A stretch of 64,000 nucleotides of DNA from Deltaproteobacteria bacterium (GTDB lineage: Bacteria; Myxococcota_A; Polyangia; Polyangiales; Ga0077539), in assembly GCA_947477565.1 (NCBI GenBank), contig CANJUR010000016.1, positions 1 through 64,000 on the forward strand, in the 5' to 3' direction. The first letter of the stretch is position 1. Each line of letters starts with the position of its first letter. Position numbers and translations under genes: made by a program. The notes beneath the pieces are model-generated. The model searched no databases and had not been told where the DNA came from. It saw only the letters and a program-made list of their open reading frames with translations. Of the stretch, positions 12,658 to 21,266 are shown piece after piece.

Positions 12658-15126
12658 TCACTTCTTCGAGGAGTGGCGACGGCGGCGGCGGAGCGATGGG
12701 ATCGCCACTGCGAGGGCGCCGAGGCAGAGCGCGAGGAGACCTGGCGCGTCGGTCACGCCCGGGTGGACCGAGCACGCGAAGCCGTCGCCCGCGTAGGTGT
12801 ATCGGGCAGCGACGACGCCCGCGTCAGCGACTCCCGCGTCGGCGACCCCCGCGTCAGCGACCCCGGCGTCAGCGACCCCGGCGTCGGCGCGCGGCACGCA
12901 GCGACCCACGGAGGTGTCGCAGACGGGCAGCGTCGGCTCGGAGCAGTTGGCGTTCGGATCAGCCGAGGGCAGGGCTGCGTTGATGCGGTTGGCGCCGTCT
13001 TCGCGGAGGTCGCTGTCGGGCACGCAGTCGTTGTCCGAGTCGCGGTCAAGGAAGTCGGGATTGTCCGAAGCGCCGTCGGTGTTCACCGGGGCGTTGAGGT
13101 TGGCGCCGCCCTCGTCGCGGTCGAGGTCACCGTCGCCGTCCGAGTCGAGGTCGCGGTAGGACGGCAGGCCGTCCACGTCGAAGTCGTCGTCCGCGGTGGG
13201 GTCGAGCATGCGCTCGACGCGGGTCGGGATGCCGTCGTTGTCGTCGTCCGGATCAAGCCAGTCGGGGTTGTCCGTGCCATCCGTGTTGCGCGGCATCGCG
13301 AAGCCCCCGGGAAGGAGTTCGTCGCGCGTGAGCACGGTGTCGTTGTCGTCGTCGGGATCGTTCGCGTCGATCATTCCGTCCATGTCGGAGTCGCGGGGCA
13401 TGGCGCTGCCTGCGGTGCCCAACTCGTCGCCGTCACGGATGGAGTCGCCGTCCGTGTCGGGGTTGTCCGGGTTGGTCCCGATGCGCACCTCGACGTCGTC
13501 GGGGATGCCATCGCCGTCGCGGTCGCCACCGACCGTGGTGGGACCGCAGTTGCCCGTGAGGCGGTTGCACACCATGCCTGCGCCGCAGTTGCTGTTCGGG
13601 TCCACCGACGGGCGCGCCGGATCAACGCGGGCGGTGCCGTCTTCGCGCGAATCGCTGTCGGGCACGCAGTCGTTGTCCGAGTCGCGGTCGAGGAAGTCCG
13701 GACCGTCGGTGCTGCCGGTCGCCACGTCGCTGTTGACGGGCATCGTCGGGACGACGCCAGACTCGTCGCGGTCGAGGTCCATGTCCCCGTCCGAGTCGAG
13801 ATCGCGGTACGAGGGCGTGCCGTCCATGTCGAAGTCGTGTCCGACGGACGTGTCGCGCGCCTCCTCGACCGCGGTCGGAATCCCGTCGTTGTCGTCGTCG
13901 GGGTCGAGCCAGTCGGGGTTATCGACCGTGTCCGTGTTGCGCGGCGCCGCGAACCCACCCGCGCCGAGTTCGTCGCGCGTGAGAACGGTGTCGTTGTCGT
14001 CGTCGTTGTCCCGGTAGTCCGAGGTGCCATCACCGTCGCTGTCGCGGGGAGACATCCCGCCGCCGGTGCCGAGTTCGCTCACCGTGGGGATGCCGTCGCC
14101 GTCGTCGTCGGGCTCGCGGAAGTCCGGCGTGCCGTCCATGTCGGAGTCACGCGTCGGCCCCTCGGTGAGGTCGGGGAGGGTGTCGCCATCGGTGTCGAGC
14201 GCCGTGCACGCCATCGCGCTGACGGCCTGGAAGCGGATGCCGTCGATGGCGAAGTCGTTGCCGCGGTCGGTCGGCTCGTTATCGACCACGCGGAACACCG
14301 TCGAGCCCGAGCGCGTCGCGCGGTGGATGCCGCCCACGAAGTCCCAGAACATTACCTCGCCGTTGGACGGGCGCAGACGGAGCTCCGGCGTCACCGGGGT
14401 GCCGTCGACGGTGATCACGAGGCGGGCGGTCAGCTGCCCGCGCGGGATGTTCTCGCCGCCCCAGTCGGCGACGTTGAACTGCACCACGTAATCGCGGCCC
14501 GCCTCGACGAGCACGCTGGCCTGGTAAGCCGTGCGGACGCCGATGCCGTTGAAGAGCGCCGCGAAGCCGTCGCCGTTCGCGTCCGCCCAACGCACGCCGC
14601 CGAAGGGCGGAAACTCGGGGTTCCACCCGGAGGGGTTGTTGGTGACCGTGAAGTTTCCTTCCGGCCCGCCGCCGCCGAACCCGTCCCTGACGTTGCGCGA
14701 GTCGTCGAAGGTGTAGTCCGACGTGAAGCCCACGCGGCCCAGGACGAAGTCACCGTTGGGCGCGAGATTGCTCGTGGTGTCGCGGCAGCCGAAGCCGAAC
14801 TCCACCCGGCACGCCGCGCTGCAGCCGTCGCCGTCGCGTGCGTTGCCGTCGTCGCACTCCTCGCGAAACGACCCCGCTCCCGCGCGGATGGAGTCGCCGC
14901 AGAGGGCCACACAGGCCGCGCCCGGGGTGCTGCACCGGAAGCCCGGCTCGAGGATGCAGGTGGTACCGCAGCCATCGCCGCCCGTGCGATTGCCGTCGTC
15001 GCAAGTCTCGCCCGCGTTGACGGCTCCGTTGCCACAGGTGATCGGCTGGGCCCACGCGACTTCGGACGCAAGCACTGTCATGGCGCCCGCAAGTCCCCAT
15101 ATCGACCGATGAACTTGTCTTCTCAT
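12658..15126 (-). CDS. DUF4215/TSP3-repeat surface protein with MYXO-CTERM-like tail
   Basis: The 822-residue product has a signal peptide (SIWGLAGAMTVLASEVAWA). Two Cys-rich DUF4215-type repeats follow (CGNGAVNAGETCDDGN and its neighbour), then a beta-rich domain at about 110-300. From 300 on there are many thrombospondin type 3 calcium-binding repeats (DTDGDTLPD, DPDDDNDGIPT) with interspersed DSDNDCVPDSD units. Near the end are DAGVA repeats, and the tail is FACS, a hydrophobic helix (LLALCLGALAVAIPSL) and RRRRR, as in MYXO-CTERM sorting signals. It is probably a calcium-stiffened surface protein. The ATG at 15126 was chosen for its signal peptide; the longer ORF is not coding. Confidence 0.9.
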   Translation of the reverse strand: MRRQVHRSIWGLAGAMTVLASEVAWAQPITCGNGAVNAGETCDDGNRTGGDGCGTTCILEPGFRCSTPGAACVALCGDSIRAGAGSFREECDDGNARDGDGCSAACRVEFGFGCRDTTSNLAPNGDFVLGRVGFTSDYTFDDSRNVRDGFGGGGPEGNFTVTNNPSGWNPEFPPFGGVRWADANGDGFAALFNGIGVRTAYQASVLVEAGRDYVVQFNVADWGGENIPRGQLTARLVITVDGTPVTPELRLRPSNGEVMFWDFVGGIHRATRSGSTVFRVVDNEPTDRGNDFAIDGIRFQAVSAMACTALDTDGDTLPDLTEGPTRDSDMDGTPDFREPDDDGDGIPTVSELGTGGGMSPRDSDGDGTSDYRDNDDDNDTVLTRDELGAGGFAAPRNTDTVDNPDWLDPDDDNDGIPTAVEEARDTSVGHDFDMDGTPSYRDLDSDGDMDLDRDESGVVPTMPVNSDVATGSTDGPDFLDRDSDNDCVPDSDSREDGTARVDPARPSVDPNSNCGAGMVCNRLTGNCGPTTVGGDRDGDGIPDDVEVRIGTNPDNPDTDGDSIRDGDELGTAGSAMPRDSDMDGMIDANDPDDDNDTVLTRDELLPGGFAMPRNTDGTDNPDWLDPDDDNDGIPTRVERMLDPTADDDFDVDGLPSYRDLDSDGDGDLDRDEGGANLNAPVNTDGASDNPDFLDRDSDNDCVPDSDLREDGANRINAALPSADPNANCSEPTLPVCDTSVGRCVPRADAGVADAGVADAGVADAGVADAGVVAARYTYAGDGFACSVHPGVTDAPGLLALCLGALAVAIPSLRRRRRHSSKK
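12815..12889. repeat. Five 15-base tandem units encoding DAGVA repeats
   Basis: Five copies of a 15-base unit of the form ACCCCCGCGTCAGCG encode the DAGVA pentapeptide linker ahead of the C-terminal anchor of the TSP3 protein. The copies differ at a few bases, so the array is not freshly expanded, but such tracts often vary in length between strains. Confidence 0.75.
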
Positions 15127-15214
15127 CAAAGTTGAAGCCTCCACAAACGATGGTCCGTCGCCCGCGAAGAAAACACAACGCACAGCCCCGAGGCCAAGAA
15201 CCACCAATATCTGT

Positions 15215-16531
15215 TCAGGGATTCGCAGCCCGTCGCCGCCTCGGATCGCCCCTTCGGCATGATTGCCAAAGCGCAAATGCGAAGCCCGCGAGTGAAAATC
15301 CGCGAGGCATCGATGTGCTCCCCGCGCGGCAGCCACAGGCGCTCGACGGCGTCGGGGCGATTACCGCGCCGCGGTCCGTAGACGCGTCGAGCAGCGTGGG
15401 CGGAACGAGCGCGCGACGCACCACTGCCCAGCGTCCCGGACACACGTCGTGCGCGGGAGTGCCTGCAGGGCAACGGCCCGGCGGCGGACCGATGTCCGCG
15501 ACCGACAGCGCCGTCACAAAGGGCGCCTCCCCATCGCTGCGCAGTAGCAGCGGACCGTTGGCGACGAACACCCGACAGGCCCAAAGCACCCCATCGCTCC
15601 AGCGCAGGCAGTCCACGGGCTCACCCGAGAAGCGCGTCGGCGCAGCACCGTCCACGGAGCGCCACACGCCGTCGTCGGGCCCGCCGGCCCACACGCTGCG
15701 GCCGTCGTCGGAGAGGGCGAAGCCCCGCATCGGGCCGCGCGTTCGAAGCACCTCGCGCAGCGTCTCGCCGCCGTCGTCGCTGCGAAAGAGCACCCCGTCG
15801 CCGTCGGCGGATCCAGCGTCCATCGTCGCGCCCGCGGCGGTGGCGCGGAGGTACAGCACCTCCGGGCGGCGACCATCGACGCCGGAGACGTACACCCCCG
15901 TGGCTTCGCCGAAGCCCGCCGCCGCGCGTACCCAGTGGACGCCGCCGTCGACGCTGCGAAAGAGCAACGCGCTCCCATCGGCATCGAGCGTCCCGCTGGC
16001 GTAGAGGCGCAGCGGATCCGAGCCCGCGACCTCGATGGTCTGCAACACCACGCCGACGAAGCGATCGCCGACAAAGTCGAAGGTGAGACCGTGGTCCAGG
16101 GAGCGCGCCACGCGGGAGTCCGGCACCGCGCTGCGGGTCACCGCGAGGGCGTAGGTGACTCTGCCATCGACGGAGGTCGCGAGGTCGCGGACGGTAAGGG
16201 ATTCGAGGTCCGGCGAGCGCCGGAAGGTGCAGCCGTCGCGGGTGGTGAGGAGGCCGTCTTCGAGCGCGACGAGCATCGTGCCGTCGGCGGCAAACACCAG
16301 CGTTGGATCATACCCGTCCCCGTATTGCAGTGCGTCTTCGCACCAGTACTCCCAGCGCCGACCGCGATCGACGCTGACCACCAGGCCGAAGGTGGTGCGT
16401 GCGACCAGGAGATCCCGGTTGGGACCGGGGCCCTGGTGAAACTCTTGAGCGCTGGGGAAGCGACCGTTGCCGAACGCGGCGGTGGTCGCAAGAAGGAGGA
16501 GCGCGGTCGCCAGGACAGCGCGGCGAATCAC
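15215..16531 (-). CDS. BNR-like beta-propeller with MYXO-CTERM tail
   Basis: The 438-residue protein begins with a signal peptide (RRAVLATALLLLATTAAFG). The body shows repeated propeller-type motifs of the BNR/VPS10 kind, such as SVDRGRRWEYW, SLDHGLTFDFVG, SVDGGVHWVRAA and SDDGGETLREVL. The end carries SACGCRAG, a hydrophobic stretch (FSLAGFAFALW) and a basic cluster (RRRRAA), so it is probably a surface-sorted MYXO-CTERM protein. The GTG start at 16531 overlaps the TGA of erpA (GTGA), which fixes the start and implies translational coupling to an iron-sulfur gene. Ligand unknown. Confidence 0.8.
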   Translation of the reverse strand: MIRRAVLATALLLLATTAAFGNGRFPSAQEFHQGPGPNRDLLVARTTFGLVVSVDRGRRWEYWCEDALQYGDGYDPTLVFAADGTMLVALEDGLLTTRDGCTFRRSPDLESLTVRDLATSVDGRVTYALAVTRSAVPDSRVARSLDHGLTFDFVGDRFVGVVLQTIEVAGSDPLRLYASGTLDADGSALLFRSVDGGVHWVRAAAGFGEATGVYVSGVDGRRPEVLYLRATAAGATMDAGSADGDGVLFRSDDGGETLREVLRTRGPMRGFALSDDGRSVWAGGPDDGVWRSVDGAAPTRFSGEPVDCLRWSDGVLWACRVFVANGPLLLRSDGEAPFVTALSVADIGPPPGRCPAGTPAHDVCPGRWAVVRRALVPPTLLDASTDRGAVIAPTPSSACGCRAGSTSMPRGFSLAGFAFALWQSCRRGDPRRRRAANP

Positions 16532-16851
16532 ACCGAGAATGAACTCCCGCAGCCGCAGGTGCCCTTCACGTTGGGATTGCCAAACTTGAAGCCCGCGCCG
16601 GAGAGGGACTCGACGTAGTCGATCTCCGTGTTCTCCAGGTACTGAATGGACAACGGATCGACGAAGAGCTGAATGCCCATGCACTCCACGATCTGGTCCA
16701 TGTCCGTGGCCTTCTCGTCGAAGTACAGGTCGTACTGAAAGCCCGAGCAGCCGCCGCCCTTGACCTGCAGACGGAGCCCCTGACCCTCGAGACCCTCCGC
16801 CTTGGCGATCTCCCTGACCTTGTTTGCTGCGATCTCGGTGAGCGTGATCAT
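16528..16851 (-). CDS. erpA: Iron-sulfur cluster insertion protein ErpA/IscA type
   Basis: This 107-residue A-type carrier hands Fe-S clusters to apo-proteins in the cytosol. All three conserved Cys are present: GGGCSGF, then GTCGCGSSF at the C-terminus. Length and N-terminus (MITLTEIAANKVREIA) match the family. A strong ribosome-binding site, AAAGGAGACACCG, precedes the ATG at 16851. The gene is followed with a GTGA overlap by a secreted beta-propeller gene. Assignment to ErpA rather than IscA or SufA is uncertain without phylogeny. Confidence 0.93.
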   Translation of the reverse strand: MITLTEIAANKVREIAKAEGLEGQGLRLQVKGGGCSGFQYDLYFDEKATDMDQIVECMGIQLFVDPLSIQYLENTEIDYVESLSGAGFKFGNPNVKGTCGCGSSFSV

Positions 16852-16972: not shown

Positions 16973-17263
16973 TCACTGCACCCGCAACCGAACAACGCCC
17001 TCCCCCGCCGCGATGCGCAGTTGGCACCCCAGTCGAATCGTCGGCCCCTCCTTCAGGTACGTGAGCAACTCGTCCTCCCAGTTTGTTCGTGGCTCGCACA
17101 ACTCCATTCCCTCGGTCACTTCGAGCCGACAGATGCCGCAGTTGGCGTGCCGACACGAAAACGGCACCCCCGCCCGGATGTCCCGATCGCACGCCTCCAG
17201 CACCGACACCCCATCGGGATAGTCCACCTCGAACCTCGTCCGCTCGAACACCAACCGCGGCAT
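16973..17263 (-). CDS. [2Fe-2S] ferredoxin
   Basis: The 96-residue electron carrier has the plant-type ligand arrangement: SCRHANCGIC (C-x4-C-x2-C) plus a distal Cys in RLGCQL. It is cytosolic, without a signal peptide. The start at 17263 gives TGATG with the stop of the upstream 978-residue lipoprotein, so both are read from one transcript with coupled translation. Its partner protein is not evident; the pairing with a surface lipoprotein is unexpected. Confidence 0.9.
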   Translation of the reverse strand: MPRLVFERTRFEVDYPDGVSVLEACDRDIRAGVPFSCRHANCGICRLEVTEGMELCEPRTNWEDELLTYLKEGPTIRLGCQLRIAAGEGVVRLRVQ

Positions 17264-20199
17264 CACCACAACCCGGCAGCAGTGACGCCCACGTCGGCCC
17301 CGAAGCCCCGCTCGCTCGATGCCTCCGGGTGGATGCGCTGCGTCCACACCCGATTGTTCGTGGGCAATACCATCGTCGCACCAGCCTGACGGTACGTATC
17401 CGCACCACCGCGATCGAGGAAGATACCCACCGTGGGACGCGCGAAACGCCCGGGATCTGTAAGCGATTCGAGCGCCGCGTTGCCGAGCGACAGCACCGCC
17501 GCTGCGTCGTAGACGTCGTCGCCACCCTCGTCCGCGAAGAGGCCCGCGCCGTTGGCGTTGCCCGCGCCCAGCGCGAGGTTGGGCACATGGTAGGTGTCCA
17601 TACCATCGCCGAGACCGAGGAGGATCCCGAGCGAGAAGTCATGCCCCGCGCCGCCGGTCATGTTCTCCCGGGCGCTGTCCTGGTTGTGCACGTCGCTGCC
17701 GCCGCCATCGACCAACGCGCCGAACGCGAAGTGCGCCGCGGCCCCCTGGACGTACCAGCGCGCGCCGTAGTGATCGTCCCCGGCGCCGTCGAGCAGCAGA
17801 CCCATCCCGCTCCAGTACCCGGTGCCCTGCGCGAAGACCCCGGCGGTGTAGCGGTCGGCCCCCGCCCGGTCGCGCAACACCCCGATGCCACCGGCCATGT
17901 TGGTGCGATCCGGGGCGCTGTCGCCGCGCCGACCGAAGCCCGCACCCTGGGTGAAGCTCGAGTTCGACATCGGGCTCTGCGCCGACGGGAAGATCACCGG
18001 CGTCACCCTGGATTCGTACACGTCGTCGCCCGCCCGATCGTGCAGCAGCCCAACCCCCTGCACGTAGCCGAAGCCCTGCGCGTACGACCACGCCGTGTAC
18101 CGGTCGCGGCCGCCGCCGTCGAGCATCACCCCGATGCCAACGATCGCCGCCCCCTGGCCGCCCGCCTCGATGTCGTAGCGATCGTCGCCGCCGTCATCGA
18201 AGAGCCCGCCCACGCCGAGCGCGCCGAAGCCCTGCGCCATTCGCAGCGCGCGATAGCGGTCGTTGCCCGCGCCGAGGTCGTAGAGCAACCCAACGCCCAG
18301 GCGACCAGCACCCTGCCGCGCCGTCCGGCTCATCGAAGCACCGACCGAGCCGCCAGCGCGCACGCGCCCGTCTGCGTCCGACGCGAGCGTCTCCGGCGTG
18401 TCGAGCGAACCGGGCACCTCGAGGTAGCCGTAGGTGTCGTCGCCGGCGAGATCGATCGCGATGCTCACGGGCTGCGCCGGATCCACGTTGGCCCCGACCT
18501 GCGCCTCGTAGGTGTCGTCGCCGCCGAGGTCGAGCAATAGAAGCGTGCGGCGAAACTCCGTCGCGGTGTACCGGTGCGCCGCGCCGTCGCGAATCACGAT
18601 CTGCCCCGCAGGCGTGTCGGCGGTAAAGCTCACCCCGGTGCTGCCCACAAACGGGAGCCAATCGATGGACTCGATCGTCGCCGCGAGGTCCACGGACTCC
18701 CGCGCCGGCAAGCGCACCTCGCCGAGCATCACCGCGAGGTCTTCCGGGTCGGCGAAGTTGGCCCGCTCGTCCGCGCGGTTGGTCGGCAATACCAGGAACG
18801 GTAAGATCTTGAAGAGGTGCGTACGCTCCTCCGGGCTGGGGAAGCGCTCGAGTCCACGGTCGCGCGCCTCCGCGGCGGTGAGCGCTGCCCGCAGCACCCG
18901 GGCCACCGCCTGCTGGAGCGCGAGGGGTACGTCCGCAGCGTCGGCCACCGCAGGCGCACGATCGAAGGTCGCACCGTCGCGCACGGCCCAGCGCTCCAGC
19001 GCGTCCACCAGGGGCTGCTCCCCCGGGGCGGTGAGCGTCGGCGACGGCGCAGCGAGCGCATCAACTTCGCCCGAGAGCCGCAGCCCTGCCGCAGCCCGCA
19101 GCGCCCCGGAGAGGGTCGCGCCGACGGCGTCGATGCTCGGTCCCATGGACCGGGCCCAGCGCGCGCCGGCGAGCCAGTCGCGGTGCACCCGATCGAACAC
19201 CGGCAAGCGGAAGCGGTCGCGCGTCACGTACGCCCCGAAGGCGTCGAGCGTGGCGGCGCTGAAGAAGAGGTTGCAGCGGTCCCACGGGGCTGCCGGATCG
19301 GCGCGCAGCGCGAGGTCAAGCACCTGGTCGCGGGCCTCAAACCCGCAGCGGCACCCGTCGGGCACGCAGACCGCTTGCGTGAGGTCGCAGCGCGAGGTCG
19401 CACCACACTCCGCGTCGGCCGTGCACGCGACGGTGCAGAAGCCTCGCAGCGCAGGGCTCGCGGGCATCACGCAGCGCAGCCCTGCGGGGCACATCACCCC
19501 CGCGTCGCCGCCGCAGGGTGCGTTGAGCCCGCGGGCGTCGAGCGCCCCGACGCCGCACGCGTCCGGCCCGATGCGGTCGTCCGGAACACACGTTCGGATG
19601 GCCGTCCCATCGGAGGCGCGCCCGTCGCGGCACCGCCGAGCGCCGTCTTCGCAGTCGGCATCCACGAGGCACGCGCCAAGGCACACGTTGCCCGTGCGGC
19701 CGACGGAGGGCCGCGTGGCGTCGAGGTCCACGCAGCGATCGTAGCGGCCGACGCACCCCCCGGCAGGACACACCGCCCCGCGCCGGCTCTCCATCGGAAC
19801 GCACCCCGCGACAGCGTCCGGCGTACATACGCGGTTGCCCGCGGCGTCGTCGCGGCAGGTCGCCGGGACCGCAGCGGCGCAGCGCTCGCCCAGCACCGCG
19901 CAGACGAGGCGGCACTCGCGCAGACCCGGGGCGCGCGTGGCATCGACGGCGACGCAGACGCTCCCGTCGTCGCCGCACTCGGCGTCGGCGCGGCAGGGGC
20001 GGCAGGTGCGCGGCGGCGCGGCGATGATCACCGGAGCAGGCGCATCGACGGCAGGCGCATCGACGGCAGGCGCATCGACGGCGGACGCATCGACGGCGGG
20101 CACATCGCGGCCGGCATCGGTGGGCGGACGATCGGTCGCGGGTGCGTCGTCGCAAGCCACGGCGGAGCCAAGGAGAAGGCCGAGGAAGAGTGCACGCAT
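17263..20199 (-). CDS. Large Cys-rich lipoprotein with G-x-D-x-Y solenoid repeats
   Basis: The 978-residue product has a lipobox (LGSAVAC) and an Asp/Ala tether (SAVDAPAVDAPAVDAPA). Residues about 60-290 are Cys-rich modules (CRPCRADAECGDDGSVC). A middle helical domain spans roughly 290-530. From about 555 to 935 a repeat of about 30-35 residues follows, with cores such as LLLDGAGDDHYGARWYVQ, LFDDGGDDRYDIEAGGQG and VLRDRAGADRYTAGVFAQ. I count about twelve cores. The Asp-rich turns suggest a calcium-stabilised solenoid. I do not recognise a named family. It is coupled by TGATG to a ferredoxin. The ATG at 20199 is fixed by the signal peptide. Confidence 0.85.
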   Translation of the reverse strand: MRALFLGLLLGSAVACDDAPATDRPPTDAGRDVPAVDASAVDAPAVDAPAVDAPAPVIIAAPPRTCRPCRADAECGDDGSVCVAVDATRAPGLRECRLVCAVLGERCAAAVPATCRDDAAGNRVCTPDAVAGCVPMESRRGAVCPAGGCVGRYDRCVDLDATRPSVGRTGNVCLGACLVDADCEDGARRCRDGRASDGTAIRTCVPDDRIGPDACGVGALDARGLNAPCGGDAGVMCPAGLRCVMPASPALRGFCTVACTADAECGATSRCDLTQAVCVPDGCRCGFEARDQVLDLALRADPAAPWDRCNLFFSAATLDAFGAYVTRDRFRLPVFDRVHRDWLAGARWARSMGPSIDAVGATLSGALRAAAGLRLSGEVDALAAPSPTLTAPGEQPLVDALERWAVRDGATFDRAPAVADAADVPLALQQAVARVLRAALTAAEARDRGLERFPSPEERTHLFKILPFLVLPTNRADERANFADPEDLAVMLGEVRLPARESVDLAATIESIDWLPFVGSTGVSFTADTPAGQIVIRDGAAHRYTATEFRRTLLLLDLGGDDTYEAQVGANVDPAQPVSIAIDLAGDDTYGYLEVPGSLDTPETLASDADGRVRAGGSVGASMSRTARQGAGRLGVGLLYDLGAGNDRYRALRMAQGFGALGVGGLFDDGGDDRYDIEAGGQGAAIVGIGVMLDGGGRDRYTAWSYAQGFGYVQGVGLLHDRAGDDVYESRVTPVIFPSAQSPMSNSSFTQGAGFGRRGDSAPDRTNMAGGIGVLRDRAGADRYTAGVFAQGTGYWSGMGLLLDGAGDDHYGARWYVQGAAAHFAFGALVDGGGSDVHNQDSARENMTGGAGHDFSLGILLGLGDGMDTYHVPNLALGAGNANGAGLFADEGGDDVYDAAAVLSLGNAALESLTDPGRFARPTVGIFLDRGGADTYRQAGATMVLPTNNRVWTQRIHPEASSERGFGADVGVTAAGLW
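20041..20100. repeat. 15-base tandem repeats encoding an Ala/Asp tether
   Basis: Four tandem copies of CGCATCGACGGCAGG or a close variant encode AVDAP units just after the lipobox of the 978-residue lipoprotein. The near-identity of the units suggests recent expansion. Confidence 0.8.
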
Positions 20200-20315
20200 G
20201 GGGTTGGGCGTCGAGGGTAGCAGCGCGGCGTGGGGGTGACATAGAGTGCGCCGCCCCGCGACCGGGACTAAACCCCCGACAGCGCGAAATGGCCGAGAAA
20301 TGACGGAGACAAGTG

Positions 20316-21266
<951 letters not shown>

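Follow-up and report, generated by a model that had tools for sequence, protein, structure and literature searches.

Our analyses show that REP, a solenoid-repeat lipoprotein of 978 amino acids encoded from an ATG start on the reverse strand at positions 17263-20199 of the window (the whole stretch of 64,000 nucleotides analysed here, with its list of open reading frames), is a genuine member of a widespread and uncharacterised family of exported proteins, probably of the beta-solenoid kind. Orthologues occur across the host phylum and in a distant clade and the sequence evolves under purifying selection, so that REP is a real gene and not an artefact. Its repeats form a domain of twelve coils with a set of near-invariant residues in coils 6-9, which suggests a putative binding or catalytic site. 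The [2Fe-2S] ferredoxin encoded immediately downstream is a local operon neighbour of REP, the adjacency of the two genes being limited to the host family.

Architecture and conservation of REP

REP begins with a type II signal peptide, identified by inspection, that carries the lipobox SAVA|C, with Cys16 as the lipobox cysteine and Asp at +2 (20152..20199, reverse strand, as are all parts of the gene). It is followed by a linker rich in Asp, Ala and Pro (residues 17-65; 20005..20151), a Cys-rich module with 29 Cys and without any Pfam match (residues 66-287; 19339..20004), a middle domain that is mainly alpha-helical according to the secondary structure of a low-confidence model (residues 288-540; 18580..19338) and a solenoid of twelve units, defined by motif, alignment and a five-coil model (residues 541-945; 17365..18579). 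The Cys residues are concentrated at the N-terminal side, with 29 of them within residues 61-290 and a single one within 291-978. The preliminary description of a 978-residue lipoprotein with about twelve repeats and a Cys-rich N-terminal part is thus confirmed in its open reading frame, lipobox, 29 Cys and twelve units.

The same architecture of lipobox signal peptide, Asp/Ala-rich linker, Cys-rich module, helical domain and solenoid is common to the orthologues of REP (L021, a Myxococcales metagenome-assembled genome (MAG), and L023-L038), whose identity to REP amounts to 79% within the genus, 51-61% within the family and 38-45% outside the family but within the order. By inspection, nearly all orthologues whose start is covered carry a comparable lipobox and signal peptide. 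The Cys-rich module retains 28-29 Cys in the host-family orthologues and in several other families, and lipobox and Cys number are both kept in most orthologues of the host order; the module is missing from two members of family f7. The middle domain is conserved across homologues, including the distant L022. Nei-Gojobori dN/dS values for the three closest sequences are 0.14-0.22 in the solenoid and 0.20-0.22 in the Cys-rich module; the linker (residues 20-60) evolves fast, at 0.55-0.85.

With these features, REP looks like an exported lipoprotein, for which lipidation is predicted and a location outside the cytoplasm is to be expected. In Myxococcus xanthus, Lys at +2 is the mark of inner-membrane lipoproteins and Ala at +7 that of matrix lipoproteins, whereas outer-membrane lipoproteins follow no such rule (PMC3222651). 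In REP these two positions are taken by Asp and Thr, respectively, so that neither signal applies to the protein, and the outer membrane is a weak guess as to where it might reside.

A repeat domain of fixed size in a large family

Residues 541-945 of REP contain 11 copies of the turn motif D-x(2-4)-G-x-D-x-[YFHW]; when these residues were shuffled 2,000 times, the motif turned up 0.26 times on average and never more than three times in one shuffle. The turn Asp residues are found at positions 562, 588, 647, 673, 699, 726, 782, 809, 836, 868, 895 and 934, spaced by 26-27 residues in 7 of the 11 intervals and by 59, 56, 32 and 39 residues in the others, and the 27-residue unit has the consensus GxGxLxD-x(2-4)-GxDxY-x(6)-QG. 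The 49 homologues that we aligned come from three groups. When anchored on the turn Asp, each of the twelve units has its own orthologous counterpart among them, the Asp being present in 49/49 homologues for units 2-5 and 7-11 and in 46-47 of 49 for units 1, 6 and 12. As this residue is kept in every unit, the repeats make up a twelve-coil domain of fixed size and not a variable array. In tandem arrays that serve as stalks or as adhesins, the number of copies is usually variable.

REP had been described as carrying a repeat that matches no nameable family, and the profile searches bear this out: it has no match at E <= 1 in the Pfam and NCBIfam profiles or, by phmmer and profile search, among PDB sequences, and none in PHROGs, and 15 of its orthologues have none in Pfam. 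Searches of viral contigs, plasmids and phages yielded no homologue, and those of the literature on solenoid repeats in Myxococcota or in lipoproteins no relevant paper. The further claim of an undescribed surface repeat holds as far as the repeat is undescribed in the libraries searched, but its fixed number is unlike that of typical surface arrays.

REP has matches in 95/284 genomes of an even sample of the host phylum; by our count the match extends over the repeat part in 73/284, the remainder being weak N-terminal matches. Homologue L022 derives from a distant bacterium, and 39 of the 61 genomes searched around it match too. Several separate solenoid homologues per genome are encoded in G179, G281 and G285, which suggests an expansion of paralogues in some lineages. 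In L022 (5167-8076, forward strand), HEAT repeats lie C-terminal to the solenoid (HEAT_2, E 7e-26), the sole Pfam matches above the curated cut-off among the REP homologues tested. In L059 and L060 the Cys-rich N-terminal part is greatly extended (1259 and 1363 amino acids), from which it follows that the Cys-rich module varies in size and the solenoid is constant.

Structure models and comparison with known solenoids

An AlphaFold model of a five-coil fragment of REP (residues 766-905), built from six sequences, reached a pLDDT of 72.5 and a pTM of 0.63 and shows two strands of about ten residues each per coil. A 694-residue model, for which only three sequences were used, has for this reason a low confidence (pLDDT 40) and was not relied on. 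Both models drew their sequences from the window and its related loci. The case for a solenoid thus combines 27-residue units in register and the moderately confident five-coil model, from which we infer that the coils of REP are stacked as in a beta-solenoid, but the long model is poor and the fold matches are not significant. Neither model matched a PDB fold at E <= 0.001, nor did the five-coil model match viral structure models at that threshold; its top PDB matches, at a non-significant E of 0.012-0.05, were the amyloid solenoids of curli CsgA and of FapC. These have two strands per repeat, as in the model of REP; repeat lengths and motifs differ, and REP carries a lipidation signal and a helical domain. 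Weak matches of the models to SufB/SufD were also obtained and, since REP is exported, were judged to be due to chance in spite of the neighbouring Fe-S genes.

Other repeat proteins offer partial parallels. The ice nucleation protein has a solenoid with a Tyr ladder, built from some 65 copies of a 16-residue coil (PMC9418140); it shares with REP the stacked coils and the Tyr at one position, whereas REP has 27 residues per coil and a fixed number of twelve. FG-GAP/integrin-alpha repeats (PF01839) are likewise rich in Gly and Asp and common in exported proteins of the host genome, but they form propeller blades and not coils, and none of their 134 matches in the genome falls at 17263-20199. 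The Ca2+-bound beta-solenoid antifreeze region IV of MpAFP (PDB 3p4g) bears a weak, non-significant likeness to the low-confidence model of REP (TM 0.43 by target, E 0.97); it has Ca2+ turns and differs from REP in coil length, with no match in sequence.

The ferredoxin as a local neighbour

The downstream gene, FDX (16973..17263, reverse strand), codes for a [2Fe-2S] ferredoxin of 96 amino acids (Pfam Fer2 PF00111, E 1.5e-11) with the Cys pattern C37-x4-C42-x2-C45-x34-C80 and, in contrast to REP, without a signal peptide. The overlap of the REP stop with the ferredoxin start in TGATG, as initially reported, is correct (17261..17265, reverse strand): the TGA of REP occupies 17265-17263 and the ATG of FDX 17263-17261. 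The next gene downstream codes for an ErpA-type iron-sulfur insertion protein (16528..16851, reverse strand; NCBIfam NF010147, 128.7 bits for a cut-off of 117). A BNR/Asp-box protein follows (15215-16531, reverse strand), its likely GTG start overlapping the ErpA stop; synteny of these two genes past FDX is found within the genus only. Further on, an 892-residue protein (12658-15336, reverse strand) combines DUF4215 with TSP3-like Ca2+ repeats; its C-terminus, a hydrophobic stretch with a tail rich in Arg, resembles a MYXO-CTERM anchor. On the other side, a divergent gene (20313..21266, forward strand) encodes a 317-residue protein with Pfam HD and PolyA_pol_RNAbd domains; devoid of a match to the nucleotidyltransferase domain, it resembles a stand-alone C-terminal part of the CCA-adding enzyme (tRNA nucleotidyltransferase). 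The intergenic region between HD gene and REP (20200..20312) contains conserved blocks, and a consensus scan found no sigma-70 consensus promoter in it.

The HD gene is the divergent neighbour of REP and ferredoxin through most of the host family, where the order HD, REP, ferredoxin is kept in genomes with sufficient flanks, the window included; a larger distance separates the HD gene from REP in G005, and two further genomes with short contigs preserve the adjacency of REP and ferredoxin. In the ten family members with REP, the two genes are on the same strand and spaced by -1 to about +18 bp, which makes their co-translation likely. Outside the host family, in the homologues examined, REP and the best ferredoxin match are on different contigs or no ferredoxin was found. 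An Fpg-like gene with the start MPELPDV directly follows the REP homologue in family f3 (L031, L033, L036), at 17-19 bp (L031:6225-7118; L036:11414-12307), and elsewhere REP adjoins an aldolase or other unrelated genes. Conservation of the gene pair therefore holds for the host's own family, but no homologue examined outside it has an adjacent ferredoxin.

The tight spacing on the same strand in these ten genomes, and the ErpA gene that comes next in the genus of the window, might be taken to mean that REP and ferredoxin are a functional pair, with the ferredoxin as a source of electrons or Fe-S clusters for REP itself or for the assembly of REP. We consider this very improbable, not only because REP has other neighbours beyond the family. 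In G003, which belongs to the same genus, REP is gone and HD gene and ferredoxin are 167 bp apart; the remaining scar (L102:5767-5932) consists of the conserved block upstream, a start resembling that of REP (MRA...), some twenty codons and the retained TGATG, and reads as an in-frame deletion of nearly the whole of REP. The conserved blocks upstream persist there despite the deletion, and the ferredoxin is 88% identical to FDX. REP is also absent from G008, of the same family, where the gap measures 135 bp. G003 is 64% complete, and absences of REP in MAGs were judged on contiguous sequence across the locus. As it is retained after the loss of REP, the ferredoxin does not need it, and since REP would be exported and the ferredoxin lacks a signal peptide, direct electron transfer between them is unlikely. 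Of the co-translated redox carrier and surface protein initially envisaged, the co-translation thus stands as likely, but the functional pairing is not supported, given these losses and the different compartments to be expected for the two proteins. A natural deletion of REP in so close a relative implies that the conserved TGATG overlap says little on shared function.

A candidate site and a possible function

Beyond the ladder positions, each of N746, S748, R758, D760, W796, H823, H853 and D854 recurs unchanged in 45-48 of the 49 aligned homologues (candidate site N746, S748, R758, D760, W796, H823, H853-D854; 17638..17964, reverse strand). Counted back from the turn Asp or its equivalent, W796, H823 and D854 share one position across three successive coils; the insert of coil 6, the coil directly before them, contains R758 and D760. 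In a parallel solenoid, this register would make W796, H823, D854, R758 and D760 neighbours, although some of the near-invariant residues may be structural instead.

We lean slightly towards reading REP as an exported lipoprotein with a fixed twelve-coil solenoid, probable Ca2+, a candidate site in coils 6-9 and a ferredoxin that is not its partner. The protein would be exported, lipidated at Cys16 and tethered through the acidic linker and a disulphide-rich module, presenting the helical domain and then a beta-solenoid with exactly twelve coils of 27 residues. Every one of these coils would contribute one Asp/Gly turn (D..GxD) and one Tyr and, in most cases, a Gln-Gly turn at the opposite edge, such that stacking would generate ladders of Asp, Tyr and Gln. 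By analogy with RTX beta-rolls, Ca2+ is probably bound between the paired Asp residues of the turns. N746, R758, D760, W796, H823, H853 and D854 would probably form one binding or catalytic site in coils 6-9, with a glycan or another envelope or extracellular polymer as its likeliest ligand. The ferredoxin would share the transcription unit of REP in the host family and act in the cytoplasm. No constant gene neighbour hinting at a substrate was detected across REP homologues with the crude gene calling used, generic Ser/Thr kinases alone recurring widely.

The analogy with RTX raises the question of whether REP is itself an RTX-type Ca2+ beta-roll or adhesin. Like RTX/HemolysinCabind proteins (PF00353), REP has stacked turns rich in Gly and Asp, an Asp ladder possibly binding Ca2+ and a signal for export; its turns GAGND, GGGRD and GAGDD resemble the RTX turn GGxGxD, and the 694-residue model (pLDDT 40) had its top fold matches in an RTX domain and in the Ca2+ solenoid of MpAFP. 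These matches are weak and non-significant, however, and an RTX coil has 18 residues and two turns, whereas REP repeats every 27 residues instead of every 9 or 18 and has a single Asp turn in each coil. Moreover, a search of the whole genome with PF00353 gave no match up to E <= 10, the 15 orthologues lack any Pfam match, and the signal peptide is that of a lipoprotein and not of type I secretion, so that we regard this identity as quite unlikely. A structural spacer or stalk without any specific site is a less remote idea, if still an unlikely one: solenoids often act as rods, and several homologues bear other domains at one side, such as the HEAT repeats of L022 and the extended Cys-rich parts of L059 and L060. 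Against it speak the fixed coil number and the non-ladder residues of coils 6-9, near-invariant between distant clades, which a mere spacer would not need.

Within the preferred reading of REP as a solenoid with a specific site, it is conceivable, though we would not expect it, that REP represents a new class of exported enzymes with a twelve-coil Ca2+-braced solenoid, a putative active site in coils 6-9 (R758, D760, W796, H823, H853-D854) and a polysaccharide or envelope polymer as substrate, present in at least two distant lineages. REP brings to light a large and strongly conserved family, found in about one quarter of the sampled genomes of the host phylum and in a distant clade, for which the libraries searched offer neither a domain nor a structure nor a name. 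Its fixed coil number and near-invariant Trp, His, Asp and Arg residues make REP a good target for structure determination.
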